64,000 bases of DNA. Origin: Jiangella muralis (lineage in GTDB: Bacteria > Actinomycetota > Actinomycetes > Jiangellales > Jiangellaceae). The position numbers and the translations under genes were made by a program. The DNA lies in contig NZ_KQ434757.1 of NCBI RefSeq assembly GCF_001270745.1, forward strand, positions 62,001-126,000, written 5' to 3'. The notes beneath the pieces were generated by a model that had not been told where the DNA came from, searched no databases, and saw only the letters and a program-made list of their open reading frames with translations. This document shows, one piece after another, positions 5,946 to 23,451 of the stretch (position 1 is its first letter; every line of letters begins with the position of its first letter).

Positions 5946-6317
5946 GTGTGCCATCGAGATGGCACCATCGGTGCCGTGGTCGACGAGGTGTTGCTTGCGG
6001 CGCGGGCGGTGGTCCTGCGCGATCTCGTGGCGCGCGGACTCGACGTCGCCGCCGCGGTCGACGTGCTGGATGCCGCCGTCAGCGAACGCCGCTGGTGGGT
6101 CGAGCAGTGGCCGGACGGCGCGGCGTTCGTGGCCGGTCAGCTGGCGCAGGACGTGCAGGACCGGCTGCTCGACGCCGGGGTGGGCCGCTGGCCGTCATGT
6201 GAGCCGTGTGCGGAGCCGGAGCCGCACGAACTGCGGATCGAGCCCGAACTCGGGCCCGATCCGCAGTGGGTGTGTGAGAAGACCGGCCGCCCGCTGGCGC
6301 CGCTCGGCGCGCTGTAG
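5946..6317 (+). CDS. Hypothetical protein with C-terminal Cys pair
   Basis: 123 residues from GTG 5946 or 113 from GTG 5976; neither has a Shine-Dalgarno, so a leaderless message from the short divergent gap with cutC is likely. The N-terminal half is helical (AARAVVLRDLVARGLDVAAAVDVLDAAV). The C-terminal half holds CEPC and, about 30 residues later, a single Cys in WVCEKTGRP, possibly a partial metal site. I do not recognise a family. The frame has normal high-GC third positions and ends just before the 45-residue ORF on the other strand. Confidence 0.6.
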   Translation: MCHRDGTIGAVVDEVLLAARAVVLRDLVARGLDVAAAVDVLDAAVSERRWWVEQWPDGAAFVAGQLAQDVQDRLLDAGVGRWPSCEPCAEPEPHELRIEPELGPDPQWVCEKTGRPLAPLGAL

Positions 6318-6331
6318 GCCGGTCGCGCCGG

Positions 6332-6469
6332 TCAGGCCGCCCGCACGTCCTCAGGCTGGACGTCTTCGGCGGGGACCCAGCGCTGCTCCGTCCGCGATCG
6401 GCCGGAGATGTCGGCCACCGTCACCCAGCGCGCCACGAGCGTGGCGGGCTGGACCCGTGTCGTCGGCAC
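6332..6469 (-). CDS. Small 45-residue protein upstream of mftD
   Basis: The minus strand has AAAGGAG 8 bases before a GTG at 6469, then 45 sense codons and a TGA at 6332. The product begins VPTTRVQPATLVARWVTV and ends PEDVRAA; it holds two Trp and no Cys. Strong ribosome-binding site, good spacing and high GC in third positions support translation. No known family is recognised. It is divergent from mftD and shares its AT-richer intergenic region, so it may belong functionally to the mycofactocin locus (inference). Confidence 0.55.
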   Translation of the reverse strand: MPTTRVQPATLVARWVTVADISGRSRTEQRWVPAEDVQPEDVRAA

Positions 6470-6506
6470 CTTGTCCGCTCCTTTCGGCCACCCATGAGTC
6501 GGGTGT

Positions 6507-6525
6507 TGTTCACCTTCTGTTCACC
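6507..6525. promoter_or_regulatory. Direct repeat TGTTCACC, candidate activator or repressor site
   Basis: TGTTCACC occurs at 6507-6514 and again at 6518-6525, spaced 11 bases, one helical turn apart. It sits between the divergent 45-residue ORF and mftD in the least GC-rich stretch nearby. Head-to-tail repeats with about 11-base spacing suit BldC-like or other tandem-binding regulators (inference). Confidence 0.35.
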
Positions 6526-6638
6526 TAGCGTACCAGGCCCGTTTCCTGAAACTCGGCGAGGCTTCATTTTGGCCCTCAGTGCCATTATTCTGTGCAGAAC
6601 GGCACGCGAGGTGCCGACCGGCGAGGTCAGAGGTGACG

Positions 6639-7817
6639 ATGTTCGGCAGGAGCAAGTGGTTCGAGACCGTGGCAGAGGCCGAGCGGCGGGCCCGCCGCCA
6701 GCTGCCGTCGTCGGTGTACGGGGCGCTGGTGGCCGGGTCCGAGAAGGGGCTGACGCTGCGCGACAACCTCGCCGCGTTCACCGAGCTCGGGTTCGCGCCG
6801 CATGTCGCCGCGACGTCCGGCGAGCGCGACCTCTCCACGCACGTCATGGGCCAGGACATCGCCCTGCCGGTGATCCTCTCGCCGACCGGCGTCCAGGCCG
6901 TCCACCCCGACGGCGAGGTCGCCGTCGCCCGGGCTGGCGCCAACCGCGGCACCGCCATGGGGCTCAGCTCGTTCGCCAGCCGCTCCATCGAGGACGTCGT
7001 CGCGGCCAACCCCAAGGCGTTCTTCCAGATCTACTGGCTGGGCAGCCGGGACGAGATGGTGCGCATCCTCGACCGCGCCCGCCGGGCCGGTGCCGCCGGC
7101 CTCATCCTCACCCTCGACTGGTCGTTCAGCCACGGACGCGACTGGGGCAGCCCGAGCATCCCGGATCGGCTGGACCTCAAGACGATGGCGCGGTTCGCGC
7201 CGCAGGTGCTGCCGCACCCGAGCTGGCTACTGCGCTACCTGCGGGCCGGGACGCTGCCCGACCTCACCACCCCCAACCTCGAAGGCGCCGACGGCGTCGC
7301 GCCCACCTTCTTCGGCGCCTACGGCCAGTGGATGCAGACGCCGCCCGCCACCTGGGACGACGTCGCCTGGCTGCGGTCGCAGTGGGACGGCCCGTTCATG
7401 CTCAAGGGCGTCATGCGGGTCGACGACGCCAAGCGCGCCGTCGATGCCGGGGTCAGCGCCATCTCGGTCTCCAACCACGGCGGCAACAACCTCGACGGCA
7501 CCCCGGCCGCCGTCCGCTCGCTCCGCTCCGTCGTCGACGCGGTCGGCTCCGAGGTCGACATCGTCCAGGACGGCGGCATCCGGCGCGGCAGCGACGTCGT
7601 GAAGTCGCTCGCGCTGGGCGCCAAGGCCGTCATGATCGGCCGCGCCTACCTCTGGGGCCTCGCCGCCAACGGCCAGGCCGGCGTCGAGAACGTCCTCGAC
7701 ATCCTCAGCGGCGGCATCGACTCCGCCCTGCGCGGCCTCGGCAAGGCGTCGGTCCGCGACCTGACCCCCGACGACCTCGTCATCCCGCCGGGCTTCCACC
7801 GGACGTTCGGGGCGTAG
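6639..7817 (+). CDS. mftD: Pre-mycofactocin synthase MftD (FMN-dependent)
   Basis: 392 residues of the lactate oxidase/glycolate oxidase fold. The start WFETVAEAERRARRQLPSSV is characteristic of MftD rather than lactate dehydrogenase; SNHGGNNLDGTPA (about residue 284) and the FMN-phosphate-binding DGGIRRGSDVVKSLALGAKAVMIGR-type segment (seen around 330-350) are present. MftD oxidatively deaminates the Val-Tyr-derived intermediate to give pre-mycofactocin, the redox-active dicarbonyl. ATG 6639 has AGAGG 5 bases upstream; GTG 6633 is an alternative. Unusually, it is not in the mftA-F operon but stands alone on the opposite strand, converging with and overlapping mftF by 38 bases. Confidence 0.93.
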   Translation: MFGRSKWFETVAEAERRARRQLPSSVYGALVAGSEKGLTLRDNLAAFTELGFAPHVAATSGERDLSTHVMGQDIALPVILSPTGVQAVHPDGEVAVARAGANRGTAMGLSSFASRSIEDVVAANPKAFFQIYWLGSRDEMVRILDRARRAGAAGLILTLDWSFSHGRDWGSPSIPDRLDLKTMARFAPQVLPHPSWLLRYLRAGTLPDLTTPNLEGADGVAPTFFGAYGQWMQTPPATWDDVAWLRSQWDGPFMLKGVMRVDDAKRAVDAGVSAISVSNHGGNNLDGTPAAVRSLRSVVDAVGSEVDIVQDGGIRRGSDVVKSLALGAKAVMIGRAYLWGLAANGQAGVENVLDILSGGIDSALRGLGKASVRDLTPDDLVIPPGFHRTFGA

Positions 7818-9189
7818 CCGGGAGCAGCGGGCGGGCCGTACGGGCGCGGACGGCGCCGCGCCAGACGCCGGTGCCGTAGGCGAGGTCGTCGGCGATGCTG
7901 GCGAGGGTCCAGCGGACCGGATCGAGCGACGGGCGCAGGCGCAGCCAGTCGCGCAGGGCCGGGGCGGCGACCAGGGCCGCCAGCGTCGCCAACCGGCGGG
8001 GGCGGCCCGCGGTCAGCGCGACCGCGGCCGGCAGCGCCAGCTGGGTGACGGCGCGGCCGGCGCCGGTCAGCGTCGCCGCGGTGGCCTCGGCGATCATCGG
8101 CGCGGCGAGCGACGGCGGGAGGCCGTCGGCGCGCAACTTCGACGCGAGCCGGGCGGCCGCGACGACACCGGCGGCCGTCGCCGGCAGCGGGCGCCGGGCG
8201 AGCAGCAGCGCCGCCACCGCGGCCGGCCAGGGTGAGAGCACCAGCGGGGCGAGGCGGTCCGGGTGCCGCCGTGCCAGCGGACCCGCCGACGTCCCGTACA
8301 GGTGACGGCGACGCAGCCAGGCTGGCCACGTCGCCGGCTCGGCGTGCGCGACGGTGACCGACGGGTCGTAGCGGACCACCCCACCCGCCGCGATCAGCCG
8401 CCACACCGCGTCGACGTCCTCGCCGTAGCGCAACGCCTCGTCGAACCGGTCCAGCGCCGTCCGCCGGACCACCAGCGCCGCCGTCGGCACGTAGGACACC
8501 CGGCCGCCGGGCCGCACGAGCGCCTCGTCCGGCCCGAGATCCAGCGGCGACCGGGCCGCCGCGAACGCGCCGAGCGTCCGGCCAGCGCCGGCCGCGAGCA
8601 CCGGCACGATCCGCGGCGCCACGGCCACGACGGCGGGGTCGGCGAAGTGGCCGGCCAGCCGGTCCAGCCAGCCCGGCGACGGCACGCAGTCGCTGTCGAC
8701 GAACGCCACCAGCTCCGCCATGGAGTCGGCCAGCGCCGCGAGACCGGTGTTGCGGGCGGCGGCCGGTCCGCCGCAGACCGGCCGCTGGAGCAGCCGGGCG
8801 CCGTGCCGCGCCACGACGGCAGCCACCGCCGCCGGGTCCACGGAACCGTCGTCGACCACGACGACGTCGGCACCGGCCAGCGCGGCCAGACACCGGGACA
8901 GCGACTCGGCGCGGTCGCGGACCGGCACGATCACCGTCACGTCGGCATCGCCGCGTACCGGCGGCCGCGGATGCGCCACCCCCGCGTCGACCAGGCGCCG
9001 GGCCAGCCGGCCGGTCCGTTCGTCCGTCACGTACCCGTCGGCCCGCAGCCGCCGGAACGCCGCGACGCCGGCCGGCGACAGCTTCAGCGCCCGCCGCGGC
9101 GATCCGCCGAGCAGCACCCGGCCGCCGTCGAGGACACGCGTCTGCCGGTCCAGCACCACCCCGAACCCGGCCGGCACCGCACGGCTCAC
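7780..9189 (-). CDS. mftF: Mycofactocin glycosyltransferase MftF (operon copy)
   Basis: 469 residues. The MftF N-terminal signature GFGVVLDRQTRVLDGGRVLL is followed by a GT2 domain: VTVIVPVRDR (about residue 87), VVVDDGS, the DxD-type [12 protein letters not shown] (about 165) and the acceptor-site GEDVDAVWRL (about 256). Several hydrophobic stretches in the C-terminal third suggest membrane association. MftF adds glucose units to mycofactocin. GTG 9189 overlaps the mftE stop (GTGA). It is the last gene of the ten-gene operon that starts at mftA. A second MftF is encoded at 16591-18045. Confidence 0.9.
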   Translation of the reverse strand: MSRAVPAGFGVVLDRQTRVLDGGRVLLGGSPRRALKLSPAGVAAFRRLRADGYVTDERTGRLARRLVDAGVAHPRPPVRGDADVTVIVPVRDRAESLSRCLAALAGADVVVVDDGSVDPAAVAAVVARHGARLLQRPVCGGPAAARNTGLAALADSMAELVAFVDSDCVPSPGWLDRLAGHFADPAVVAVAPRIVPVLAAGAGRTLGAFAAARSPLDLGPDEALVRPGGRVSYVPTAALVVRRTALDRFDEALRYGEDVDAVWRLIAAGGVVRYDPSVTVAHAEPATWPAWLRRRHLYGTSAGPLARRHPDRLAPLVLSPWPAAVAALLLARRPLPATAAGVVAAARLASKLRADGLPPSLAAPMIAEATAATLTGAGRAVTQLALPAAVALTAGRPRRLATLAALVAAPALRDWLRLRPSLDPVRWTLASIADDLAYGTGVWRGAVRARTARPLLPATPRTSGGSPAG

Positions 9190-9857
9190 GAGGCGGCCAC
9201 CCAGGCGGCGACGGCGGTGCCGAGGTCGGCGGCCAGGCCGGCGAAGATCTCCCGGCCCGCCTCGGCCGACGCGCCGGCCGGGTCGCCGAGCACGCCGTTC
9301 GGGCTGACCGCCCGCACCCCGCCGGAGCGCAGCGCCGGCATGAGCTCGGCCAGCGGCTGCACCGCCCCGGCCGCGGCCTCGGCCAGCGCCACCCGCTCGG
9401 CGGACAGGTACAGCTGCAGCGACGTCTCGACGAACCCGGCGTGCGCGTCGCCGTCCCAGCGCGGGAACCATGCCAGCACGTCGCGCGACTCCGCCGTCAG
9501 CGTGGCCAGCGCCGCCCGGACGGCGGCCAGGTTGCCGCCGTGCCCGGACACCACCAGCAGCCGCGGGAACGTCGCCGACGCCGACCGGCCCAGCTCGACC
9601 AGCACGTGCGTCAGCGCCTCCGTGCCGATGGACACCGTGCCGGGGAAGTCCTGGTGCTCGCCACTGGCACCGTAGGGCAGCATCGGCGCCACCACGACGT
9701 CCGGCCGCGCGGCCGCCAGCGCCGTACACAGCGCCACCGCCACGTCGGTGTCGGTCGAGAGCGGCAGGTGCGGCCCGTGCTGCTCGGTCGACCCCAGCGG
9801 CAGCGCCAGCACCGACTCACCCGGGACCACAGGCCACCGCAGCTCCCCCAAGATCAC
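9186..9857 (-). CDS. mftE: Mycofactocin precursor peptide peptidase MftE (creatininase family)
   Basis: 223 residues of the creatininase fold with metal ligands visible in LGSTEQHGPHLPLSTDTDVA (Glu, His, Asp; about residues 23-42), the YGASGEHQDFPGTVSIG segment (about 67-83) and VVSGHGGN (about 103-110). MftE cuts the modified C-terminal Val-Tyr unit from the MftA precursor. The ATG at 9857 overlaps the stop of the VWA gene (ATGA) and the gene's own stop overlaps mftF, so translation is coupled on both sides. Confidence 0.92.
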   Translation of the reverse strand: MILGELRWPVVPGESVLALPLGSTEQHGPHLPLSTDTDVAVALCTALAAARPDVVVAPMLPYGASGEHQDFPGTVSIGTEALTHVLVELGRSASATFPRLLVVSGHGGNLAAVRAALATLTAESRDVLAWFPRWDGDAHAGFVETSLQLYLSAERVALAEAAAGAVQPLAELMPALRSGGVRAVSPNGVLGDPAGASAEAGREIFAGLAADLGTAVAAWVAAS

Positions 9858-10813
9858 GCAAACACCTCTCCGAGTGCCGGTGCGACCTCACGATAGCCGC
9901 CGATCCGGAACAGCCGCCCGCGGCCGAGCCGGGCGAGGTCGCGGCCGAGGTCGGCGTCGTGCTCGCCGGACGTGTCCAGCAGTACGTCCAGCCGGGGCAG
10001 CCGGGCGGCGAACGGACGCGGATCCGGGCCGGCGTTGTGCACGCAGTCCGACAGCAGCAGCGCCCGGGCGTCCCGCGCCGGCACCCGGGCCAGCTCGCGC
10101 GCGGCCACCTGCAGCGGGAACGCGACGTTGGTGAGCCCCTTGACCTGGATCCGCAGCAGCGTGTCCAGCAGCCGCCGCGGCGACACCCGCTCACCCAGGT
10201 GCGCCAGCACGGCGGCGTCGGACCAGAACGCGATCGCGGCGACGTCGTCGGCGGACAGTTCCGCGGCCAGCGCGCCCAAGGCGGCCGCGGCCGTCCGCAC
10301 CCGCTCGCCACGCATCGACCCGGACACGTCCACCAGCAGCGCGACCGCCCGCCGCGCCCGCACCCGCTCGCGCACGATCACGTCGCCGTCCTCGGGGACC
10401 GGGTGCTCGACCAGTTGCTCCAGGGTCCGGTCGAGGTCGATGTCGTCGGAGCCGCCGCGGTACCGGACGCTGGCCAGCTCGCCGGCGCCGCGCCGCGCGG
10501 TCACGTCGCGACGCGGCCGCGGCACCGCCAGCCGGGCGGCGATCTGCCGGGCCCGGCGCAGCACCTCGGGATCGGGATCGGCGTCGTCCGGGACGGCCGC
10601 GAGCAGCGTCGCCGCCTCGTCCGTCGTGCCGGGCGCGCCCGAGCCCGGCGGCACCCGCCGCGGTCCCGGCGGCCGGAGCCCGCCCGGCGCCACCGGGCTC
10701 CCGCCGCCGGACGCCGACACGTCATGCAGGACGGGGTCGTCGTCGAGCTGCTTCGGCCGCCGCCGCAACGGCCGCAGCCCGTTCGGCGAGGGGGACGAGG
10801 CCCGCCGCCGCAC
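9854..10813 (-). CDS. VWA domain-containing protein in the mycofactocin operon
   Basis: 319 residues from GTG 10813, 24 bases after the MoxR gene. The first 100 residues are Pro/Arg/Gly-rich and low in predicted structure; the VWA domain starts about residue 130 with VALLVDVSGSM (MIDAS DxSxS), followed by the MIDAS Thr region GLTNVAFPL and LLSDCVHNAG. MoxR ATPases paired with VWA proteins usually act as chaperones that insert metals or cofactors or assemble complexes, for instance with alcohol or CO dehydrogenases. Its place between the SDRs and mftE suggests a role for a mycofactocin-linked enzyme (inference). Confidence 0.87.
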   Translation of the reverse strand: MRRRASSPSPNGLRPLRRRPKQLDDDPVLHDVSASGGGSPVAPGGLRPPGPRRVPPGSGAPGTTDEAATLLAAVPDDADPDPEVLRRARQIAARLAVPRPRRDVTARRGAGELASVRYRGGSDDIDLDRTLEQLVEHPVPEDGDVIVRERVRARRAVALLVDVSGSMRGERVRTAAAALGALAAELSADDVAAIAFWSDAAVLAHLGERVSPRRLLDTLLRIQVKGLTNVAFPLQVAARELARVPARDARALLLSDCVHNAGPDPRPFAARLPRLDVLLDTSGEHDADLGRDLARLGRGRLFRIGGYREVAPALGEVFA

Positions 10814-10837
10814 CGGCGACGACGCCTCGACCGTCCT

Positions 10838-11752
10838 TCAACCAGGGGCCGCGGCGGCCGGTTGCAGGACGAAGTGGTCCTCCCAGATCGTGCGCAGCAC
10901 CCGCTCGGGCGTCGTCTCGACGGTCTCGTCGAGGAAGATCCGCCCGGACAGCGCCACGACCATCGCGTCGAACACGACGTCCGGGTAGCCCGGGTCCGAC
11001 GCCGACGCCACCTCGGCCAGGCCGAGCAGCTGCCCGGCCACCAGCGTGAGGTCGATCGCGCCGCGGACGCTGCTGCCCTGGCGCAGGTCCTCGTGCGTGC
11101 GGGTGGCCCGGGTGACGGCGACGGCGTCGGCGGCCAGCCGCTCGTACAGCAGCGGGTCGACACCGGCCAGCGGCGCCCGCAGCGCGACGATGCCGCGCTC
11201 GGCCGCGTCGTCCTGGTAGCCGACCGCCAGCCGGCACAGCCGGTCGTGCACGCTGGTCGAGAGCCGGGTGGTGCCGACGTTGTCGAACGGGTTCATCGAC
11301 GCGACCACCCGGAACGTCGGCAGCGCCGCCACGCGGCCCACCCGCGGCACCGCGATCTCACGCTCCGCCATCGCGGTGAGCAGCGTGTTCAGCGTGTCCT
11401 CGGGGGCCCGGTTGAACTCCTCGACGTACAGGAAGCCGCCGCCGCGCATGGCCTCCAGCAGCGGCCCGTCGACGAAGTTCTCCGGGCTGTAGTCCTCGCG
11501 CAGCACCCGGGCCGGGTTGTGGTGGCCGACCAGCTTCGCCGGCGTGAGGTCGGCGTTGCCCTCGACGAACACCAGCGGGATGCCCCACTCGGCGGTGATC
11601 GCCCGCAGCAGCGTGCTCTTGCTGGTGCCGGGCGGGCCCTCCAACAGCAGGTCCCGCCCGGCGGCCACGGCGGCCAGGACGAGGTCCAGTTCCCGGCCGC
11701 GGCCCACCAGGTGCCGCCGGACCCGGTCGCGGACCTCCGTCAGCCCCGTCAT
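10838..11752 (-). CDS. MoxR-type AAA+ ATPase in the mycofactocin operon
   Basis: 304 residues. Walker A is GPPGTSKST (about residue 39), Walker B with the MoxR-specific form is FLYVEEFNRAPEDTLN (about 104), and sensor 1 is VVASMNPFD (about 143). The start ATG 11752 has AGGAGG closely upstream and lies 8 bases after the SDR gene. It forms a pair with the downstream VWA gene. The pair is embedded in the mft operon rather than next to a recognisable dehydrogenase subunit, which is the odd feature here. Confidence 0.9.
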   Translation of the reverse strand: MTGLTEVRDRVRRHLVGRGRELDLVLAAVAAGRDLLLEGPPGTSKSTLLRAITAEWGIPLVFVEGNADLTPAKLVGHHNPARVLREDYSPENFVDGPLLEAMRGGGFLYVEEFNRAPEDTLNTLLTAMAEREIAVPRVGRVAALPTFRVVASMNPFDNVGTTRLSTSVHDRLCRLAVGYQDDAAERGIVALRAPLAGVDPLLYERLAADAVAVTRATRTHEDLRQGSSVRGAIDLTLVAGQLLGLAEVASASDPGYPDVVFDAMVVALSGRIFLDETVETTPERVLRTIWEDHFVLQPAAAAPG

Positions 11753-11760
11753 GCGACCTC

Positions 11761-12597
11761 CTACTTGACGACGGCGCCGGCGTCGACCGGCAGCGCCACC
11801 CCGGTGATGTAGCGGGCCTCGTCCGACGCCAGGAACAGCAGCGCGTTGCTGATGTCCACCGGCTCGACCCACGGGATCGGCAGCGCGTTCATCGCCTGCG
11901 ACGCCGGTACGAAGTCATCGCGGGTCGGGTTCTCCAGGTCCGGCCGGAACAGCCGGTAGGTGCCCTCGTTCTGGATCATCATCGTGTCGACCTGCGTCGG
12001 GTGGATGCTGTTGACGCGGATCGAGTGCGGCGCCAGCTCCAGCGCCAGCGTCCGCATCAGCCCGACCACGCCGTGCTTGGCCGACACGTAGTGGGCGATG
12101 TTCTGGTACGCCTGCAGCCCGGCGGCGGAGCTGGTCAGCACGATCGACCCGCCGTCGCCCTGCTCGACCAGCCGCGGGATCGCCACCTTGGTGGTGTGCC
12201 AGACCCCGGTGAGGTTGATGTCGATCATGTCGCGCCAGAGTTCCTCGGTCAGCTCGTGCGTCGGGTGCGGCTGGGTGCCGATGCCGGCGTTCGCGCTGAC
12301 GATGTCCAGCCGGCCCAGCTGGGCGACGCCGTCGTCGACGGCCGCCTGGAGCGCGGCGAGGTCGCGCACGTCCGTCTTGGACGCGACGATGCGCCGGTCC
12401 AGCGCCTCGACCTCCTTCACCGTCTCGGCGAGGTCCTCCTCCGTGGCCGCCGGATAGGGCAGGCCCGGCACCTCGTCGCAGATGTCGACGGCGATGATGT
12501 CGGCGCCCTCCTGCGCCAGCCGCACCGCGTGGCTGCGGCCCTGACCGCGCGCCGCGCCGGTGATGAACGCGACCTTGCCCTCGACCCGTCCGGCCAT
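11761..12597 (-). CDS. Mycofactocin-coupled SDR family oxidoreductase (copy 1)
   Basis: 278 residues. It starts with the nucleotide-binding [23 protein letters not shown] of mycofactocin-coupled SDRs, then VVSANAGI-type, [11 protein letters not shown] (catalytic Ser) and [13 protein letters not shown] (Tyr/Lys). Proteins of this subfamily hold NAD(H) tightly and are thought to exchange electrons with mycofactocin instead of free cofactor, oxidising alcohols. It is longer than its two neighbours by an extra segment around NEGTYRLFRPDLENPTRDD (about 205-225). It lies 10 bases after copy 2 and 8 bases before the MoxR gene. Confidence 0.9.
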   Translation of the reverse strand: MAGRVEGKVAFITGAARGQGRSHAVRLAQEGADIIAVDICDEVPGLPYPAATEEDLAETVKEVEALDRRIVASKTDVRDLAALQAAVDDGVAQLGRLDIVSANAGIGTQPHPTHELTEELWRDMIDINLTGVWHTTKVAIPRLVEQGDGGSIVLTSSAAGLQAYQNIAHYVSAKHGVVGLMRTLALELAPHSIRVNSIHPTQVDTMMIQNEGTYRLFRPDLENPTRDDFVPASQAMNALPIPWVEPVDISNALLFLASDEARYITGVALPVDAGAVVK

Positions 12598-12607
12598 GGT
12601 CAGCGCC

Positions 12608-13420
12608 TCACTTCTTGTTTGTGAAGCCGGCGTCGACGGGCAGCGTCACGCCGGTGACGTAGCGGGCGTCGTCGGAGACCAGCCACAGGATCGCGTTGGA
12701 GATGTCGACGGCCTCGAGCATCGGCACCGGCAGCGCGTTCGCCATCGCGTTGGACAGGCTCGGGTCCTGCGCCAGGAACTCCTGCATGACGTCGTTGACG
12801 ACCATCGGCGTGTTGACGCCGGTCGGGTGGACGGTGTTGACCCGGATCGAGTGCTCGGCCAGCACGTTCGCGTACGAGCGCATCAGGCCGACGACGCCGT
12901 GCTTCGACGCGGTGTAGCCGAGGCCGCCGGGCTGGCTGCCGCCGATGCCGTTGATGCCGGCCGTCGAGCTGGTCAGCACGATCGCGCCGCCGCCGCGCTC
13001 GATCAGCGCCTGCTTGGCCACCTCGACGGTGTTGTAGACGCCGGTGAGGTTGACCGCCACGACGTCGTCCCACTCGTTCGGCAGCACGGTGACGCCCATC
13101 GGCGCGATGCCGGCGTTGGCCAGCACGATGTCCACGCCGCCGAGCTCCGCGACACCGGCGTCGAACGCGGCCTGCAGCCCGTCGCGGTCGCGGACGTCGG
13201 CCTCGGCGGCGACGATGCGCCGGTCCAGCGCCTCGACCTCCCGGACCGTCTCGGCCAAGTCCTCCGGCGTCGACATGGGGTAGGCGACCGAGTCGATCTG
13301 CTTGCAGATGTCGACCGCGACGATGTCGGCGCCCTCCTGCGCCAGCCGCACCGCGTGGCTGCGGCCCTGGCCGCGGGCCGCACCGGTGATGAACGCGACC
13401 TTGCCCTCGAGCTTGCCCAT
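12608..13420 (-). CDS. Mycofactocin-coupled SDR family oxidoreductase (copy 2)
   Basis: 270 residues, middle of three tandem paralogues. [20 protein letters not shown] at the start, DICKQI after the second strand, [18 protein letters not shown] (catalytic Ser) and [16 protein letters not shown] (Tyr/Lys) define the mycofactocin-coupled SDR family. GAGG precedes the ATG. The active-site loop (GGSQPGGL) and C-terminal part differ from copies 1 and 3, so the three probably act on different alcohols or carbonyls (inference). Confidence 0.9.
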
Positions 13421-13433
13421 ATCGCGAACCTCC

Positions 13434-14246
13434 TCAGTACTGGGTGTTGCCGGCGTCGACGGTCATGGTGAGCGCGGTGATGTAGCGGGCCTCGTCGGAG
13501 GCCAGGAACAGCACGGCGTTGCTGATGTCGACCGGCTGGGTGATCTCGACCGGCAGGCTGTTGGTGAACATGCCGGCCAGGCGCGGGTGCTGCTCCAGCC
13601 ACGCGCCCATCTGGGCCATCCCGTCGCCCGCACCCATCGGCGTGTCGACGCCGGTGGGGTGGACGCTGTTGACCCTGATGTGGTGTTCGGCCAGTTCATG
13701 CGCGAACGCCCGCATGAGGCCGACGACGCCGTGCTTGGCGGCGACGTAGGGGGTGAGGAACGGCAGCCCCTTGAGGCCGGCCGCGGAGCTGGTGAGGACG
13801 ATCGACCCGCCGCCGGCGGCGACCAGGTGCGGCGCGGCCAGCTGGACGGTGTTCCAGACGCCGGTGAGGTTGATGTCGAGGGTGTCGCGGAAGACCTCCG
13901 GCGTCACCTCGTCCCACGGCGCCAAGATGCAGATGCCGGCGTTGGCCACGACGACGTCCAGGCGGCCCAACTCGGCGACGCCCTCGTCGATCGCCGCCTT
14001 CACCGCGTCGCGGTCGCGGACGTCGGCCTGACGGGCGACGATGCGGCGGTCCAGCGCCTCGACGTCCTTGACGGTCTGTTCCAGGTCCTCCGGTGTGGCC
14101 GCCGGGTACCCGATGCCGGGTACCGGACCACAGAGGTCGATCGCGATGACGTCGGCGCCCTCCTGCGCCAGCCGGACCGCGTGGCTGCGGCCCTGACCGC
14201 GCGCCGCACCGGTGATGAACGCGACCTTGCCTTCGACACGCCCCAT
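13434..14246 (-). CDS. Mycofactocin-coupled SDR family oxidoreductase (copy 3)
   Basis: 270 residues, first SDR after mftC (19 bases downstream). The [12 protein letters not shown] start, [15 protein letters not shown] cofactor-domain insertion, [19 protein letters not shown] and [16 protein letters not shown] motifs match the family. The end DAGNTQY is typical of the group. GGAGG precedes the ATG at 14246. Its cofactor-domain insertion ([20 protein letters not shown]) closely resembles that of copies 1 and 2, pointing to tandem duplication. Confidence 0.9.
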
Positions 14247-14265
14247 TGCGCGCCTCCTTCGGGTG

Positions 14266-15507
14266 TCAGGTGCTGGTCGGCACCTCGCTGAGATCCAGGC
14301 CCGCGAGCGGGCTCTCTTCGCACGCGCTGACCGGCGGCCGCTCGGGACGCCGGAGCGCGATGGTGACGGGGACCGGTCCGTGCCCGCGACGGGAACGGCT
14401 CGCGGGCGCGGTCCGGTGCGAGTGGTCGGCGGCCGGCTTCGGCGGACGGACGTCGCCGCGGGCCAGCAGCGCGTCGGCGCCGTAGCCCTGCACGCACTCC
14501 GGGTCCGGGCCGTCCAGCGGCAGGCCGGTGAAGAACTTCGCCGCCATGCAGCCGCCGCGGCAGGAGTCGAAGTGCTGACACTTCGTGCAGGCGCCGCCGG
14601 TCTGCGGGCTGCGCAGGTCGGTGAACAGGTCGGACTCGCGCCAGATCCGGGTGAAGCCGCCCTCGGTGCGGACGTTGCCGGCCAGGAACGTGTCGTGGAT
14701 GGCGAACGGGCAGGCGTAGACGTCGCCGACCGGGTCGATCAGGCAGACGACGCGACCGGCGCCGCACAGGTTCAGCCCCGGCAGCGACTCTCCGTAGGCG
14801 GACAGGTGGAAGAACGAGTCGCCGGTGAGCACGTTGTCGCCGTGGTCGAGCAGCCAGTCGTACAGCTCGCGCTGCTGCTGAGCCGTCGGGTGCAGCTCGT
14901 CCCAGACGTCGGCGCCGCGGCCGGACGGACGCAGCCGGGTGAGCCGCAGCTGCGCGCCGTACCGGTCGGCGATGGCCTTGAAGTCGTCCAGCTGGCCGGC
15001 GTTCTGCCGCGTGACGACCACCGAGATCTTGAACCCGGTGAACCCGGCGGCGGCCAGGTTCTCCATAGCCCGGACGGCGGTGGCGTACGAGCCCGGCCCG
15101 CGGACGAAGTCGTTGACGTCGGCGGTCGCGCCGTCGAGGGAGATCTGCACGTCGACGTAGTCGCTGGCGGCCAGCCGGGCAGCGACCTCGGGGCTGATCT
15201 TGACGCCGTTGGTGGAGAACTTCACGCCGACGCGGTGCTCAGTCGCGTAGTCGACCAGTTCCCAGAAGTCCGGCCGCACGGTCGGCTCGCCGCCGCCGAT
15301 GTTCACGTAGAACACCTGCATCCGCTCGAGCTCGTCGATGACCGCCTTGCACTCCTCGGTCGTCAGCTCGCGCGGGTCGCGCCGGCCCGAACTGGAGAGG
15401 CAGTGCACGCAGGACAGGTTGCAGGCGTAGGTGAGCTCCCAGGTGAGGCAGATGGGTGCGTCGAGTCCGTACTCGAACAGCTCGACCAGCTTCGTCTGGG
15501 TGGTCAT
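14266..15507 (-). CDS. mftC: Mycofactocin radical SAM maturase MftC
   Basis: 413 residues. The radical SAM cluster motif is CNLSCVHC (Cys 29, 33, 36), after WELTYA; NIGGGEPT (about residue 77) is the SAM-binding GGE motif. The C-terminal SPASM domain has Cys residues in LNLCGAGRVVCLID, VYACPFAIHD and CTKCQHFDSCRGGCMAAKF for auxiliary iron-sulfur clusters. MftC decarboxylates the terminal Tyr of MftA and then forms the Val-Tyr crosslink. ATG 15507 overlaps the mftB stop (ATGA). The last 60 residues are Arg/Pro-rich. The frame stays open further upstream, but that is mftB in another frame. Confidence 0.95.
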   Translation of the reverse strand: MTTQTKLVELFEYGLDAPICLTWELTYACNLSCVHCLSSSGRRDPRELTTEECKAVIDELERMQVFYVNIGGGEPTVRPDFWELVDYATEHRVGVKFSTNGVKISPEVAARLAASDYVDVQISLDGATADVNDFVRGPGSYATAVRAMENLAAAGFTGFKISVVVTRQNAGQLDDFKAIADRYGAQLRLTRLRPSGRGADVWDELHPTAQQQRELYDWLLDHGDNVLTGDSFFHLSAYGESLPGLNLCGAGRVVCLIDPVGDVYACPFAIHDTFLAGNVRTEGGFTRIWRESDLFTDLRSPQTGGACTKCQHFDSCRGGCMAAKFFTGLPLDGPDPECVQGYGADALLARGDVRPPKPAADHSHRTAPASRSRRGHGPVPVTIALRRPERPPVSACEESPLAGLDLSEVPTST

Positions 15508-15803
15508 GGGGTCCTCTCGACGACCATCTGGGACTGCACCAGGACACCGAGCGCCTTCTCGTACTTGGGCAGCTCGGCGCCACCGATGCCGGCCGCCGTA
15601 CAGGCGGCGCGCGCGGTCGGCTCGGCCGCGAGTGACCGCACGACGGCCAGCAGCGTGCGGTCCTTGAGGAAGGAGAGCCGGCGGGTGCCGAAGTGGTACA
15701 GCAGCGCTCCGAACGGCTCGGGCCGCACCGCGACCTGCGGATGCAGGTCGAAGGCGCGGTCCAGGTCGATGGCGGGCACGGCGGCGCTCAGTACACGCCG
15801 CAC
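15504..15803 (-). CDS. mftB: Mycofactocin biosynthesis chaperone MftB
   Basis: About 99 residues from GTG 15803 or 91 from GTG 15779; the shorter form starts directly with VPAIDLDRAFDLHPQVAVRP. The core PEPFGALLYHFGTRRLSFLK is the MftB signature. It is the RiPP recognition element that presents the MftA leader to MftC. The longer start would overlap mftA by 16 bases, the shorter lies 8 bases after it; no clear Shine-Dalgarno decides between them. The stop overlaps the mftC start. Confidence 0.9.
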   Translation of the reverse strand: MRRVLSAAVPAIDLDRAFDLHPQVAVRPEPFGALLYHFGTRRLSFLKDRTLLAVVRSLAAEPTARAACTAAGIGGAELPKYEKALGVLVQSQMVVERTP

Positions 15804-15892
15804 ATGCCGTCGATGGAGACCTCTTCCACCAGAGAGTCGTCCTCGACCAGATCATCCGGCACGGTCGCTGCTGTCTGATCCGTCTGCGTCAT
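15788..15892 (-). CDS. mftA: Mycofactocin precursor peptide MftA
   Basis: 34 residues: an acidic leader (DDLVEDDSLVEEV) and the invariant C-terminal IDGMCGVY, whose last Val-Tyr becomes mycofactocin. GGAG stands 7 bases before the ATG. It is the first gene of the minus-strand operon and is divergent from mftR with 84 bases between the starts. All residues known to be needed for maturation are present. Confidence 0.96.
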   Translation of the reverse strand: MTQTDQTAATVPDDLVEDDSLVEEVSIDGMCGVY

Positions 15893-15927
15893 GAAATGCT
15901 CCTGCAGGTCGAGTTCCGGCGATATGG

Positions 15928-15956
15928 TTCGGATACTAATGACACCGAGTGCCGAA
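15928..15956. promoter_or_regulatory. Inverted repeat between mftA and mftR, candidate MftR operator
   Basis: TTCGGATACT (15928-15937) and AGTGCCGAA (15948-15956) form an inverted repeat, TTCGG-act on one side and agt-CCGAA on the other, with a 10-base spacer. It overlaps a GATACTAAT that could be a -10 element for mftR. TetR regulators commonly bind such sites in the gap to a divergent gene. MftR itself would be the expected protein (inference). Confidence 0.45.
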
Positions 15957-15976
15957 TGGAAGGGGGTGACCCGACA

Positions 15977-16594
15977 TTGCCCACCGACGACGGTTCCACT
16001 GCTGGTGAGAGCGGTGCGCACCGGCTCGGACGGCGTCCGTCCACTACTCAGGCGGAGCTCAGCCACGTCGCGCTGACGCTGTTCGCCGAGCGCGGCTTCG
16101 ACGACACCACCGTCGACGACATCGCGGCGGCGGCCGGCATCGGGCGGCGCACGTTCTTCCGCTACTTCGCCTCGAAGAACGACCTCCCGTGGGGCGACTT
16201 CGAGGCCCAGCTGGACGGCATGCGCCGGCACCTGGACGGCCTGCCCGACGACCTCCCGCTGATGGACGCGGTCTGCCGGGCCGTCATCGAGTTCAACCGC
16301 GTCCCGGCCGAGGAGGTGCCGTGGCACCGGCAGCGCATGCGGCTGCTGCTGGGCGTCCCGGCGCTGCTGGCGCACTCGACGCTGAAGTTCCAGGCCTGGC
16401 GCGACGTCGTGGCCGAGTACGCCGCCCGGCGGCTCGGCGTACCGGCGGACAGCCTGGAGCCGCAGGCGCTGGCGTGGACGATGCTCGGCATCGCGCTGTC
16501 GGCGTACGAGCAGTGGTTGCTGCGCGAGGACGCCGACCTCACCGAGCTGCTGGAGTCCGCGCTGCGGATGCTGGGCGAGCGGTTCTCGACGTGA
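15977..16594 (+). CDS. mftR: TetR family transcriptional regulator MftR
   Basis: 205 residues from TTG 15977, which has GGAAGGGGGTGA about 10 bases upstream; upstream in-frame codons look uncoding. The N-terminal HTH is ELSHVALTLFAERGFDDTTVDDIAAAAGIGRRTFFRYF, the typical TetR core. Position divergent from mftA and sequence type match the mycofactocin system repressor, reported to respond to acyl-CoA. Its TGA overlaps the GTG of the second mftF. Confidence 0.92.
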   Translation: MPTDDGSTAGESGAHRLGRRPSTTQAELSHVALTLFAERGFDDTTVDDIAAAAGIGRRTFFRYFASKNDLPWGDFEAQLDGMRRHLDGLPDDLPLMDAVCRAVIEFNRVPAEEVPWHRQRMRLLLGVPALLAHSTLKFQAWRDVVAEYAARRLGVPADSLEPQALAWTMLGIALSAYEQWLLREDADLTELLESALRMLGERFST

Positions 16595-18045
16595 CCCTGC
16601 CCGGCGGGTTCGGGGTCGCGCTGGACCCCGGCGCCTGGCTGGACGGCGACGTGCTGTTCGGCGGGACGCCGTTCCGAGTGGTGACGCTGACGCCGCGGCA
16701 GCGGGCGACCATCGACGGCTGGCTGGCCGGCGGCCGGGTGGGCGACGACGGCGGGCTGGCGCGGGCGCTGGTCGCGGCCGGGCTGGCGCTGCCGGTGCCG
16801 CCCCCGATCGACGCCGGCCGGTGGCCGCGGGTGAGCGTCGTCGTCCCGGTGCGCGACCGGCCGCGGCAGCTGGACCGGCTGCTGACGGCGTTGACGGCGC
16901 TGTCCGCACAAGAGCCGGTGCACGAGGTGATCGTGGCCGACGACGCGTCCGCCGACGCCGCCGCGCACGCCGCGGTCGCCGCGTCCGGTGGGGCGCGGCT
17001 GGTCCGGCTGGACGAGCGGCACCGGGCGCCGGGCGCGCGCAACGCCGGGGCGGCCGTCGCGACCGGGGACGTGCTGGCGTTCGTCGACTCCGACTGCGTC
17101 CCGGAGCCGGGCTGGCTGACGACGCTGCTGCCGCACTTCGCCGACCCCGAGGTGGCCGCCGCCGCGCCCCGGGTGGTGGCGCTGGAGACCGGCCGCCACG
17201 GCTGGCTGGACCGCTACGAGCAGCACCGGGCACCGTACGACCGCGGCGCGCTGCCGGGACCGGTCGCGCCGGGCGGGCGCATCCCGTTCGTGCCGACGGC
17301 GACGGTGCTGGTGCGGGCCGCGGACTTCCCCGGGTTCGACACCACCCTGCGCGGCGGCGAGGACGTCGACCTCGTCTGGCGGCTGACGGCGGCCGGGCGC
17401 GCCGTGCGGTACGAGCCGGCCGCCCGGGTGGCGCACGAGCACCTGACCACGCCGCGGGCGTTCCTCGGCCGCCGCGCCTACTACGGGCGGACCGCTGCCC
17501 CACTGGCCCGGCGGCACCCCGGCGCCGCGCGGCCGCTGGCGATGTCGCCGTGGACCGCGGCGGCGTGGGCGGCGGTGGCGCTGCGGCGGCCGGTCGCCGC
17601 GGCCGGCATCACGGCGACGGCGTGCGCGCTGCTGGCCGCCGAACTGCGCGGCGTGGTGCCCGATCCGGTGCGGACGGCGGTCCGGCTGGCCGGCGGCGGG
17701 ACGCTGCGCGCCGGCGAGGCCGTCGCGGACGCCGTCGTGCGGACGTGGTGGCCGGGCGCGGTCGCCGCCGGTGTGCTCGTCCCCCGGCTGCGCCCCGCCC
17801 TGGCCGCGGCCGCCGTCGTCCCGGCGATCCTGGAGTGGCGGCGGCAGCGCCCGGACCTCGACCCGGTTCGCTGGCTGCTCACCCGGCGCCTCGACGACGC
17901 CGCGTACGGCTGGGGCGTGTGGTCCGGCGCGCTGGCCACCGGCGAGCCCGACCCGCTCCGCCCCGATCTCGGCTGGCGGCTGCGGGTCGAGTCCGCCGAC
18001 GACCTCGTGGCCGCGGTCAGCGCCGGCCGGCGAAGAACTCCCTGA
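16591..18045 (+). CDS. mftF: Second mycofactocin glycosyltransferase MftF
   Basis: 484 residues from a GTG overlapping the mftR stop. It has the same plan as the operon Mft[20 protein letters not shown] at the start, [16 protein letters not shown] (about residue 80), [12 protein letters not shown] (about 165), [11 protein letters not shown] (about 252), then a hydrophobic C-terminal third. The two copies share the motifs but differ clearly elsewhere, so this is an old paralogue or a transferred copy, not a recent duplication. It may build a different glycan or act under MftR control (inference). The 3' end overlaps the convergent epoxide hydrolase by 29 bases. Confidence 0.88.
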
Positions 18046-19156
18046 CGTCGGCGGCGAGCAGGTCCGGCGCCTCCAGCGCGGCGAAATGGCCGCCGCGGTC
18101 GTACTCCGTCCAGCGCACGACCGTGCCCATCGGGTCGACGAGGTGCCGCACGGAGGTGTCGGCGGCGAAGACCGCGACGGCCCCCGGCGGCAACACGGGC
18201 GCCTCCTGCGGCTGGTCGCCCGCGCTGGCCATGAACTGCCGGAACGCCTGCATGCCCTCGTAGACGACGTGCGCCGCCGTCGCTCCCGTCCCGGTGAACC
18301 AGTAGATGCTGACGTTGGTGAGCAGCCGGTCCCGGCCGACGGCGTCCTCGGGCAGCTCGGCGGCCGGGTCGGTCCACTCGCGGAACTTCTCCGCGATCCA
18401 CGCCAGCTGGCCGACCGGCGAGTCGGCCAGCGCGTAGGCCAGCGTCTGCGGCCGGGTGGCCTGCAGGGCGAGGTAGCCGATGCCGTCCTCGCGGAACGTG
18501 TTGAACCGCTGCGCCCGCGCCTGCTCGGCGCCGGACAGCCCGTCGAGCTCGACCGGCGGCCCGAACGGATACGGCGCCGGCCCGTTGACGTGCGTGCCGA
18601 TGACCCGGTCCGGGTGCAGCATCGCCAGCATCCCGACCACGCCGGCGCCGACGTCGCCGCCCTGCGCCGCGAACCGGTCGTAGCCGAGCCGCGTCATCAG
18701 CTCGGCGACCGCGCCGGCCACCCGGAACAGGTTGCCCCAGCCCGGCCCGGACAGCGGCGAGAACCCGAACCCGGGCAGCGACGGGACCACCAGGTGGAAC
18801 TCGTCGGTGAGCAGCGGGATCAGGTCCAGGAACTCGACGACGGAGCTGGGCCAGCCGTGCACCAGCAGCAGCGGCGTCGCGTCCGGGTTCGCCGACCGGA
18901 CGTGCAGGAAGTGCAGGTCCTGCCCGTCGACGGTGGTGACGAACTGCGGGTGCGCGTTCAGTTCGGCCTCGCGGGCGCGCCAGTCGAACCCGTCGCGCCA
19001 GTACGCCGTCAGCTCCCGCAGGTACGGCAGCGGGACGCCGCGCTCCCAGCCGGTGCCGGCCACCTCGACCGGCCAGCGGGTGCGGGCCAGCCGGTCGCGC
19101 AGGCCGGCGAGGTCGGCGTCGGAGATGTCGATACGGAACGGCCGGATGTCGGTCAT
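18017..19156 (-). CDS. Epoxide hydrolase (EHN-type alpha/beta hydrolase), copy A
   Basis: 379 residues. The N-terminal EHN region begins [20 protein letters not shown]; the alpha/beta-hydrolase core has [10 protein letters not shown] (oxyanion HGWP, about residue 97), the nucleophile region [15 protein letters not shown] (Asp in QGGDVG, about 170) and the catalytic His in [14 protein letters not shown] near the end. Such enzymes open epoxides to diols. It lies 12 bases downstream of its paralogue with its own AAGGAG site, so the two form an operon. Confidence 0.9.
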
Positions 19157-19168
19157 GACGGGTCTCCT

Positions 19169-20290
19169 TCAGCGGGCGAGGTCGGCGAAGAACTCCCTGA
19201 CGTCGGCGGCGAGCAGGTCCGGCGCCTCCAGCGCGGCGAAGTGGCCGCCGCGGCCGAACTCGGTCCAGCGCACGATCGTGTCCGTGGCCTCGGCGAACCG
19301 GCGGATCGCGATGTCCGTGGTGAAGTTCGCGACGGCGGTCGGGACGGTGGACCGCTCTCGCGGCGCCCAGCCGGCCGCGTCGTGGAACCGCTCGTAGTAA
19401 GTATGCGCGGTCGAGCTGGCGGTGTTGGTGAACCAGTAGATGCTGACGTTGGCGAGCAGCAGGTCGCGGTCGACGGCGTCCTCGGGCAGCTCGCCGGCCG
19501 GGTCGGTCCAGTCCTTGAACTTCTCGACGATCCAGGCCAGCTGCGCCGTGGGCGAGTCGGTCAGCCCGTACGACACCGTCTGCGGCCGGGTGCCCTGCAA
19601 CGTCAGGTAGCCGCCCAGCTCCTGCTGGAAGTTCTGGAACAGCTCCATCCGCCGCTGCTCCGACTCCGTCAGCCCGTCCAGGTCGCCGGAGGGGAACGTC
19701 ACGAACGCGTTGACGTGCACGCCGACGACGCGGTCCGGCGCGACCCGGCCGATCTCCGGGCCGATGAACCCGCTGACGTCGCCGCCCTGGACGCCGTAGC
19801 GGTCGTAGCCGAGCCGCTCCATCAGCGCGGCCAGCGTCGCGGCGGACCGGCCGTCGGTCCAGCCGGTCTCGGTGACCGGGCCGGAGAAGCCGTAGCCGGG
19901 CAGCGACGGGATGACGAGATGGAACTCGTCGGTGAGCAGCGGGATCAGGTCCAGGAACTCGAGGAACGAGCCCGGCCAGCCGTGCAGGAGCAGCAGCGGC
20001 AGCGCGTCCGCGTGCTCCGACCGGAGGTGCAGGAAGTGCACGGTCGTGCCGTCGAGGTCCGTGCTGAACTGCGGGAAGGCGTTGAGCGCCTTCTCCTGCG
20101 CGCGCCAGTCGAACCCGTCGCGCCAGTACGCGGCCAGCTCCTTCAGGTAGCCGGACGGGACGCCGCGCTCCCAGCCGGTGCCGGCGACCTCCACCGGCCA
20201 GCGGGTGCCGGCCAGCCGATCGCGCAGGTCGGCGAGATCGGCGTCGGAGATGTCGATGCGGAAGGGGCGGATCTCGGTGGAGTTCGTCAT
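19169..20290 (-). CDS. Epoxide hydrolase (EHN-type alpha/beta hydrolase), copy B
   Basis: 373 residues, tandem paralogue of copy A with the same motifs: [41 protein letters not shown] with the nucleophile Asp, and [15 protein letters not shown]. The long N-terminal and C-terminal blocks are nearly identical to copy A while the central lid differs, consistent with duplication followed by change of substrate pocket. ATG 20290 is chosen because the frame upstream runs through the divergent regulator's operator. Confidence 0.9.
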
Positions 20291-20305
20291 GCCCCTACGG
20301 TCTCG

Positions 20306-20336
20306 GCAATTGCGGCCAGTTACGGGCCGCGATTGC
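20306..20336. promoter_or_regulatory. Operator-like inverted repeat between epoxide hydrolase and WYL regulator
   Basis: GCAATTGCGGCC (20306-20317) and GGCCGCGATTGC (20325-20336) pair at 11 of 12 positions with a 7-base spacer. It fills the 61-base gap between the divergent starts at 20290 and 20352, where the regulator would repress or activate both genes (inference). Confidence 0.6.
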
Positions 20337-20351
20337 TGCCAGAATCGAGGA

Positions 20352-21347
20352 ATGGTGGAAACCTCGGCCCGGCTGCTGAAGCTGCTGTCATTGCTGCAAC
20401 TGCGCCGCGAGTGGGCCAGCGCCGACCTCGCCGACCGGCTCGGCGTCGCCGTGCGCACCGTCCGCCGCGACGTCGACCGGCTGCGCACGCTGGGCTATCC
20501 GGTCGACGCCACGCCCGGCGTGTCCGGCGGCTACCGGCTCGGCTCCGGCGCGGCCATGCCGCCGCTGCTGCTCGACGACGAGGAGGCGGTAGCGGTCGCG
20601 GTCGGGCTGCGGACGGCCGCCGGCGGCTCCGTCACCGGCATCGAGGAGACGTCGGTGCGGGCGCTGGCGAAGTTGGAGCAGGTGCTTCCGACGCGGCTGC
20701 GGCACCGGGTGACGGCGCTGTCGGCGGCGACCGTGCCGCTGCCGGTGGCCGGGCCGTCGGTGGACTCGGACGTGCTGACGGCCATCGCGGCCACCGTCCG
20801 CGACCACGAGCGGCTCCGCTTCGACTACGTCGGCCACGACGGCGGCTCGTCACGGCGCGAGGTCGAGCCGCACCGGCTGGTCAACCGCGGCCGCCGCTGG
20901 TACCTCGTCGCCTGGGACGTCGGCCGGTCCGACTGGCGCACCTTCCGCGTCGACCGGATGACGCCGACGATCCCGACCGGTCCGCGGTTCGCACCGCGCC
21001 CCGACCCCGGCGGCGACGTCGCCGACTTCGTCAACCGCGGCCTGGACCTCGCGCTGTGGCGGTACCGCGCGACGCTGCGGCTGCACGCGCCGGCCGACGC
21101 CGTCGCCAGCAGGCTGCCGGCGACGATCACCGTCGAGCCGGAGAGCGAGCAGACCTGCGTCATCCACACCGGCGCCGACAGCTACGAGATGATCGCCGTC
21201 TACACCGCCATGCTCGACGTCGACTTCGACGTGCTCGACCCGCCGGAGTTCGCCGACCACCTGCGCCGCCAGGCCGCCCGCTACGTCCGCGCCGCGGACT
21301 CGGCCCCTGCCCCTGCCCCTGCCCCTGCCCCTGCCCCTGCCCCATGA
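20352..21347 (+). CDS. YafY-type transcriptional regulator (HTH-11 and WYL domains)
   Basis: 331 residues. N-terminal winged [15 protein letters not shown] then [22 protein letters not shown] (about 22-43). The WYL domain is seen in [10 protein letters not shown] and [17 protein letters not shown] (about 180). The C-terminus ends in a run of Pro-Ala dipeptides encoded by a GCCCCT hexamer repeat, and the TGA stop lies inside an inverted repeat. The gene is divergent from the epoxide hydrolase pair and very likely controls it. WYL proteins usually sense a small ligand. Confidence 0.9.
21303..21343 (+). repeat. Hexanucleotide tandem repeat (GCCCCT)n in coding sequence
   Basis: Six perfect GCCCCT units (21303-21338) and a partial seventh encode alternating Pro and Ala at the end of the WYL regulator. 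Because the unit is 6 bases, slippage changes tail length without shifting frame. Confidence 0.9.

Positions 21348-21683: not shown

Positions 21684-23451
<1,768 letters not shown>

Follow-up and report, generated by a model that had tools for sequence, protein, structure and literature searches.

Two described systems in which a MoxR-type AAA+ ATPase works with a von Willebrand factor A (VWA) domain protein offer the closest points of comparison for the locus considered here. CbbO, the partner of CbbQ in a Rubisco activase, uses its metal ion-dependent adhesion site (MIDAS) to bind a single acidic residue on the surface of Rubisco, and the job of the pair is to free a trapped ligand, according to the excerpted part of PMC4660213. 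The MIDAS of NorD, the partner of NorQ, likewise relies on an acidic residue of NorB (PMC9976466, in excerpt). We analysed a 64,000-nucleotide stretch of the actinobacterium Jiangella muralis, hereafter the window (assembly GCF_001270745.1, contig NZ_KQ434757.1, positions 62,001 to 126,000, forward strand; coordinates below are those of the window), in which a MoxR/VWA gene pair lies within a mycofactocin operon, next to three mycofactocin-coupled short-chain dehydrogenases/reductases (SDRs) of the TIGR03971 family. SDRs of this family hold a buried, non-exchangeable nicotinamide adenine dinucleotide (NAD), a property known for the mycobacterial members (PMC5264612, in excerpt). Comparative data make it highly probable that the pair is dedicated to mycofactocin dehydrogenases, on which it probably acts by remodelling of the NorQD/CbbQO kind; the explanation that fits the observations best overall, and that we consider likely, is a two-part remodelling machine for mycofactocin-dependent nicotinoproteins. 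No published link between MoxR/VWA and mycofactocin or nicotinoproteins was found in the open-licence library searched.

The genes in question follow one another on the minus strand: SDR1 (13434..14246), SDR2 (12608..13420), SDR3 (11761..12597), the MoxR ATPase (10838..11752) and its VWA partner (9854..10813). All three SDRs score above the curated TIGR03971 cut-off of 300 bits (386, 380 and 428 bits, respectively), and SDR3 is close to the solved carveol dehydrogenases (PDB 5ej2, E value 4e-122). The MoxR protein has an AAA_5/AAA_3 domain with a Walker A motif (GPPGTSKS) at 11615-11638, and its ATPase residues (Walker A/B) are conserved. The VWA protein has a VWA_2 domain, the MIDAS of which comprises D162-x-S164-x-S166 (10316-10330), T228 (10130-10132) and D256 (10046-10048), all invariant in 60 VWA sequences. 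An AlphaFold2 model of MoxR (mean predicted local distance difference test, pLDDT, 91) matched NorQ (9qh4, 2e-19) and CbbQ2 (6l1q, 1e-18) best in Foldseek, and that of the VWA protein (pLDDT 78) matched the VWA domain of NorD (9qhd_G, 1e-9). The strongest PDB sequence matches of MoxR are midasin chains, followed by NorQ and CbbQ. By sequence comparison, the ATPase and MIDAS residues of the pair are intact, and the predicted structures are NorQ/NorD-like.

The resemblance to NorQ/NorD extends to the architecture, with a separate short MoxR and a VWA protein carrying a C-terminal VWA domain with a MIDAS, and to the genes, which adjoin each other and the client gene. However, the fold alignments show ~18-26% sequence identity, and the client of NorQ/NorD is a membrane metalloenzyme that needs FeB, whereas the presumed clients here are soluble NAD nicotinoproteins; we know of no metal in the SDR active site. 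With CbbQ/CbbO, the pair shares the MoxR fold, and the contact between a MIDAS and an acidic residue, together with release of a trapped ligand, is the model proposed below, but the client and the trapped ligand are different and CbbO, with ~770 residues, is far longer than the VWA protein of the window (319 residues). NorQ or CbbQ proper was ruled out for the MoxR of the window, the neighbours being SDRs and mft genes rather than norCB or Rubisco genes. It also falls below the cut-offs for the MadB family AAA ATPase (NF047784, 51 of 475 bits) and GvpN (TIGR02640, 71 of 266.8 bits), and the ten phage homologues found are distant matches, none of which reaches 80% coverage. Recoding at an in-frame TGA in three Pseudonocardia MoxR matches was considered and rejected in favour of ordinary termination; in 11 of 12 related MoxR loci that were translated, a TGA lies ~10-16 residues beyond the conserved end or where the protein itself ends.

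When named genomes were scanned with an alignment of MoxR, 80 of 106 matching loci were covered, 62-92% identical and almost all actinobacterial. In 57 of these loci, a mycofactocin-coupled SDR lies directly 5' of moxR and on the same strand. TIGR03971 was matched by each of 28 SDRs examined, namely SDR3 and 27 of those upstream of moxR; no other neighbouring gene recurs at a similar frequency. The VWA gene adjoins moxR in 76 loci; three of the other four are at a contig edge, and in the fourth (L129, from Rubrobacter) the VWA domain is probably fused to a second MoxR (L129:10665-12878), which is preceded by a stand-alone MoxR. A single reading frame likewise encodes both MoxR and VWA in each of two Acidimicrobiaceae metagenome-assembled genomes (MAGs; L115:9959-11860 and L121:9950-11854). 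Such natural fusions, taken together with the near-constant adjacency, suggest that the two proteins may form a complex. At least one of mftB, mftC, mftD and mftE occurs within the stretch examined in 34 of the 57 SDR-MoxR loci and none in the remaining 23, some of the 57 being short stretches; the 23 argue that MoxR is tied to the SDRs rather than to biosynthesis. SDR-MoxR/VWA blocks away from mft operons are found in Rhodococcus, Gordonia, Kineosporia and Pseudonocardia, and both MoxR-carrying plasmids, which are from Rhodococcus, have mycofactocin-coupled SDRs beside moxR.

The distribution of MoxR closely follows that of mycofactocin. Among 393 genomes of the class, MoxR (E value ≤1e-60) was found in 18 and mftC in 112, and all 18 are mftC-positive (Fisher's test, 5e-11), with MoxR in none of the 281 mftC-negative genomes; that both counts refer to the same 393 genomes is deduced from the equal totals and the genome handles, and the number of independent observations is smaller than 18, given that the positive genomes represent nine genera and seven of them are Jiangella. 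The converse does not hold, as 94 of the 112 mftC-positive genomes are without MoxR. In the wider set, the 80 MoxR loci come from genomes of which 78 were searched for mftC; 73 of them have it, within the locus itself in 29 cases and elsewhere in the genome in 44 of the other 49. Three isolates, Homoserinimonas (L063) and two Leucobacter (L086 and L107), have mycofactocin-coupled SDRs with MoxR/VWA in genomes with no detected mftC; L063 and L086 also hold mftR, mftD and an mftF-like gene, and no mftA motif was found in the three loci. These loci are either relics or signs that the isolates use mycofactocin produced by other organisms.

The SDRs themselves carry a mark of the association. One alignment column stands out, with Asp in 60 of 60 SDRs from MoxR arrays versus 2 of 30 controls, the latter being SDRs from mft-positive genomes without MoxR. 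The residue is at column 67 (numbering of SDR3), in the motif LDRR, where the helix that follows the insertion covering NAD ends, and its codons in the window are at 14049-14051 in SDR1 (residue 66), 13223-13225 in SDR2 and 12397-12399 in SDR3 (Asp67), all on the minus strand. SDR1-3, members of TIGR03971, possess an Asp common to most SDRs in MoxR-positive genomes and to few elsewhere. When every SDR-like frame in the 80 loci is counted, the column holds Asp in 157, Gly in seven and no residue in five; the seven Gly frames are the most distant (35-44% identity) and probably represent ordinary SDRs. Asp is also present in all four SDRs read on the two Rhodococcus plasmids. No clear difference between the SDR sets was seen for a C-terminal motif that might act as a docking tail, as in CbbQO-linked Rubisco.

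The mark is not confined to SDRs encoded next to the pair. In ten MoxR-positive genomes, all 11 linked SDRs have Asp, as do 43 of the 67 unlinked ones, from a set of 85 matches from which one partial match was left out and five from G343 and G144, which have only the second MoxR subfamily described below, were set aside (one Asp, four Gly); three genomes (G076, G078 and G080) had been chosen from loci with a known linked SDR. By comparison, 28 MoxR-negative genomes yielded Asp in only 4 of 99 SDRs, with Gly in 89 and Asn in six, 100 of the 140 matches (47 and 93) having been read. On a tree built without the marker column and those next to it, Asp goes with MoxR in an average of 9.1 of 17 independent pairs and against it in 0.0, with 7.9 neutral (median p 0.004, with a quick tree search). 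J. muralis itself has Asp in the three operon SDRs and Gly in four SDRs elsewhere. Taken together, the sequences indicate that Asp tracks the MoxR machine at the level of the genome and in trans as well.

A second MoxR subfamily, 51-57% identical to the first, is present in 9 of the 393 genomes, all of them mftC-positive, and is located ~5-16 kb from mftC in five of the nine. In five of six loci read (L257, L258, L259, L260 and L261), its gene lies directly 3' of a Zn-type alcohol dehydrogenase dependent on N,N-dimethyl-4-nitrosoaniline (NDMA) that scores above the cut-off of TIGR03989; in the sixth, L262, no TIGR03989 was found in the three frames scanned. A VWA frame adjoins this MoxR in five of the six loci, the exception at the score used being L259. 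TIGR03989 is unrelated to TIGR03971, although both are classes of nicotinoproteins linked to mycofactocin (PMC3023750, in excerpt). Service to the NDMA-dependent methanol dehydrogenase TIGR04266 was ruled out for the pair in the window, as this genome encodes none.

The initial annotation had suggested that the MoxR/VWA pair serves the SDRs of the operon, a suggestion that has gained strong comparative support from the adjacency, the co-occurrence with mftC, the tracking Asp and the NorQD/CbbQO-like folds. In the mechanism that we propose, the MoxR hexamer would be the ATP-driven motor and the VWA protein the adaptor, gripping its client through the metal of the MIDAS. The clients within the operon would be SDR1-3, probably docking through the conserved Asp: since the MIDAS of CbbO and NorD needs an acidic client residue, Asp67 is, by analogy, an obvious candidate for such a contact, although we hold this assignment with somewhat less than even confidence. 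SDRs of the TIGR03971 family bury NAD without exchange, hence the proposal that the machine opens its client; most likely the non-exchangeable NAD would be loaded while the enzyme is assembled, or a spent or damaged NAD would be replaced, and the reduced SDR would then hand electrons to mycofactocin. That loading or clearing of NAD is the outcome of the remodelling is a tentative suggestion. Equally tentative is a joint reading of both subfamilies, in which MoxR/VWA would service mycofactocin nicotinoproteins in general, as a system that has so far gone unrecognised. One subfamily would then serve the TIGR03971 SDRs, its MIDAS docking on an Asp that is gained and lost together with the machine, and the other the unrelated Zn-type TIGR03989 dehydrogenases; as NAD is never released, the machine would open these enzymes to load or replace it, and would be to nicotinoproteins what Rubisco activase is to Rubisco.

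Several observations weigh against this proposal. On the structural side, the alignment of the VWA model with NorD is loose (TM-score 0.42, root-mean-square deviation 8) and the model itself is of moderate confidence (pLDDT 78). Furthermore, by the usual SDR topology, the loop bearing the marker Asp would lie on the surface and away from NAD, so that docking there would imply action at a distance. The correlations are also imperfect: Gly occupies the column in 24 of the 67 unlinked SDRs of MoxR-positive genomes, and the four Asp SDRs of MoxR-negative genomes comprise two in G058, with no MoxR inside the 20 kb read around these two SDRs, one in G117 and one in G200. MoxR occurs without mftC in 5 of the 49 genomes searched beyond the locus (two MAGs and three Microbacteriaceae isolates), and an SDR is lacking at MoxR in 20 of the 80 loci and is only divergent in three more. 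An alternative partner for the SDR-less loci was sought in 20 neighbouring open reading frames and rejected; these belong to unrelated families (transporters, acyl-CoA ligase, kinases, amidohydrolases and others), with nothing recurrent beyond near relatives. Finally, numerous SDRs of this type operate without the pair in mycobacteria and other organisms, and mycobacterial SDRs produced in Escherichia coli carry NAD without it (PMC5264612, in excerpt). Given that Gly-type SDRs carry NAD in this way, NAD loading cannot need the pair in general.

One alternative is that the pair helps the SDRs to fold or to assemble as tetramers, with NAD uninvolved. The adjacency and the Asp evidence would also fit such a role, and RavA/ViaA and other MoxR proteins are chaperones without metal insertion (PMC10585395, in excerpt), but the related Gly-type SDRs need no helper of this kind, and folding offers no reason for two unrelated nicotinoprotein classes to share a machine, whereas locked-in NAD would provide one; we therefore regard this possibility as unlikely. 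It is distinctly unlikely that Asp-type SDRs are simply one old lineage inherited along with the pair, without functional contact. The genes do travel together in Jiangella operons and in most arrays, and many branches of the SDR tree are open (21 of 91), yet the SDRs upstream of MoxR do not form a single clade: they fall among Gly-type SDRs, with 17 label changes, at least nine of which are forced by well-supported branches, compared with a mean of 30.8 after shuffling. Common inheritance also fits poorly with the independent pairs, in which counter-examples to Asp following MoxR average 0.0, and with the Asp of SDRs unlinked to the pair.

Metal insertion is the best-known job of MoxR/VWA pairs (PMC9976466, in excerpt), and in the window the VWA gene overlaps mftE by 4 bases, which raises the question of whether the pair matures a biosynthesis enzyme instead, for example by delivering metal to the neighbouring MftE or by aiding MftC or MftD. 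At least one of mftB, mftC, mftD and mftE is found in 37 of the 80 loci, three of which (L060, L080 and L103) have no SDR at MoxR. Nevertheless, maturation of a biosynthesis enzyme appears very unlikely in view of the 23 SDR-MoxR loci without these genes in the stretch examined and of the many mftC-positive genomes that manage without MoxR; moreover, it would leave unexplained both the Asp in SDRs encoded far from the pair and the second subfamily beside TIGR03989. MoxR-vWA modules are also known from predicted conflict systems (PMC7159879, in excerpt), and MoxR has a weak match to bpMoxR (35.5 bits). However, a conflict or phage-defence module lying in the operon by chance is hardly credible, since the PADLOC matches are only marginal (E values 4e-4 and 6e-4) and the presence of MoxR follows mycofactocin.

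To our knowledge, how NAD enters mycofactocin dehydrogenases, or is replaced once spent, is unexplained. If NorQD/CbbQO-like remodelling does take place, the ATPase/adaptor pair would answer how a permanently held NAD is loaded or replaced, and MoxR/VWA remodelling would be extended to NAD enzymes. It would also explain the possible failure of some mycofactocin dehydrogenases when made alone in a foreign host. The Asp/Gly switch offers a one-residue test and a predictor of which dehydrogenases need the helper.

With regard to the operon as a whole, the initial annotation had recorded ten genes in one direction from mftA (15892) to mftF (7780), and its coordinates are right. All ten are on the minus strand, with intergenic gaps of 8, -4, 19, 13, 10, 8, 24, -4 and -4 bases, and the mft genes and SDRs score above the NCBIfam cut-offs. 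The SDR block and the MoxR/VWA pair are preceded by mftA, encoding the precursor with the C-terminal sequence IDGMCGVY* (15788..15892; TIGR03969, 53.7 bits, cut-off 25), mftB for the peptide chaperone (15504..15779; TIGR03967, 108 bits, cut-off 33) and mftC for the radical SAM maturase (14266..15507; TIGR03962, 672 bits, cut-off 265), and are followed by mftE for the peptidase (9186..9857; TIGR03964, 284 bits, cut-off 172) and mftF for a glycosyltransferase (7780..9189; TIGR03965, 414 bits, cut-off 280). Neither a terminator-like nor a sigma-70-like site came up when 6300-18200 was scanned with consensus patterns; the lack of predicted terminators and the short gaps are the two points in favour of co-transcription of the ten genes.

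The gene for the pre-mycofactocin synthase, mftD, had not been listed but is present on the plus strand (6579..7817; TIGR03966, 690 bits, cut-off 471), outside the operon; it converges on mftF, the end of which it overlaps. The locus thus contains mftA, with the IDGxCGVY end, and mftB to mftF. Also overlooked were two plus-strand genes divergently upstream of mftA, namely, mftR, encoding a TetR-type regulator (15956..16594; TIGR03968, 285 bits, cut-off 225), the start codon of which is uncertain, the frame being open from 15896, and a gene for a second MftF-family glycosyltransferase next to it (16591..18045; TIGR03965, 414 bits, cut-off 280). The reported absence of MftG is true of the operon but not of the genome, which encodes a GMC oxidoreductase (Pfam) above the TIGR03970 cut-off at G000:C23:4972-6444. 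Compared with the known mycofactocin system, the locus therefore has the same six biosynthesis genes and mftR, with MftG elsewhere, and differs in the SDR block and MoxR/VWA pair between mftC and mftE, the convergent mftD and the second MftF beside mftR.

This arrangement had been considered unusual, but the comparison of gene order shows it to be the common form in the genus, an outcome that the initial annotation had itself named as a refutation. Among 11 Jiangella congeners searched, six have mftC, and all six share the order mftR< >mftA-B-C-SDRs-MoxR, followed by VWA-mftE-mftF where the contig continues (it ends after moxR in G002 and inside mftF in G005); <mftD is visible in the four whose contigs reach that far. 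The number of SDRs varies between three and five among mft-positive Jiangella, with the SDR1 and SDR2 types constant. MoxR/VWA is absent from the stretches read of 14 mft loci outside the genus. Arrangements with SDRs and MoxR/VWA are frequent in Microbacteriaceae and Micrococcaceae. The order C-D-E-F, taken as the usual one in the initial annotation, does occur in some relatives (e.g. L033, L034 and L043), but others have C-E-(SDR-like)-F-D. Three genomes of another genus of the same family (G015, G019 and G020) have mft genes, but neither MoxR nor any TIGR03971 SDR at E values ≤1e-70 was found in them.

The second MftF-family protein is ~45% identical to the MftF of the operon and also adjoins mftR in the six mft-positive Jiangella relatives (partly visible in L028) and in G020 (L043); judging from its sequence, the Jiangella lineage may produce a differently glycosylated mycofactocin. 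Four further mycofactocin-type SDRs, three of them above the cut-off, are encoded elsewhere in the J. muralis genome (L169/L170, G000:C6:255-276 kb), near genes for an ABC transporter, an amidohydrolase and a major facilitator superfamily transporter. Beyond the second mftF in the window, two adjoining epoxide-hydrolase genes (EHN domain) occupy 18017-20488 on the minus strand, with groEL further on (21684-23393).

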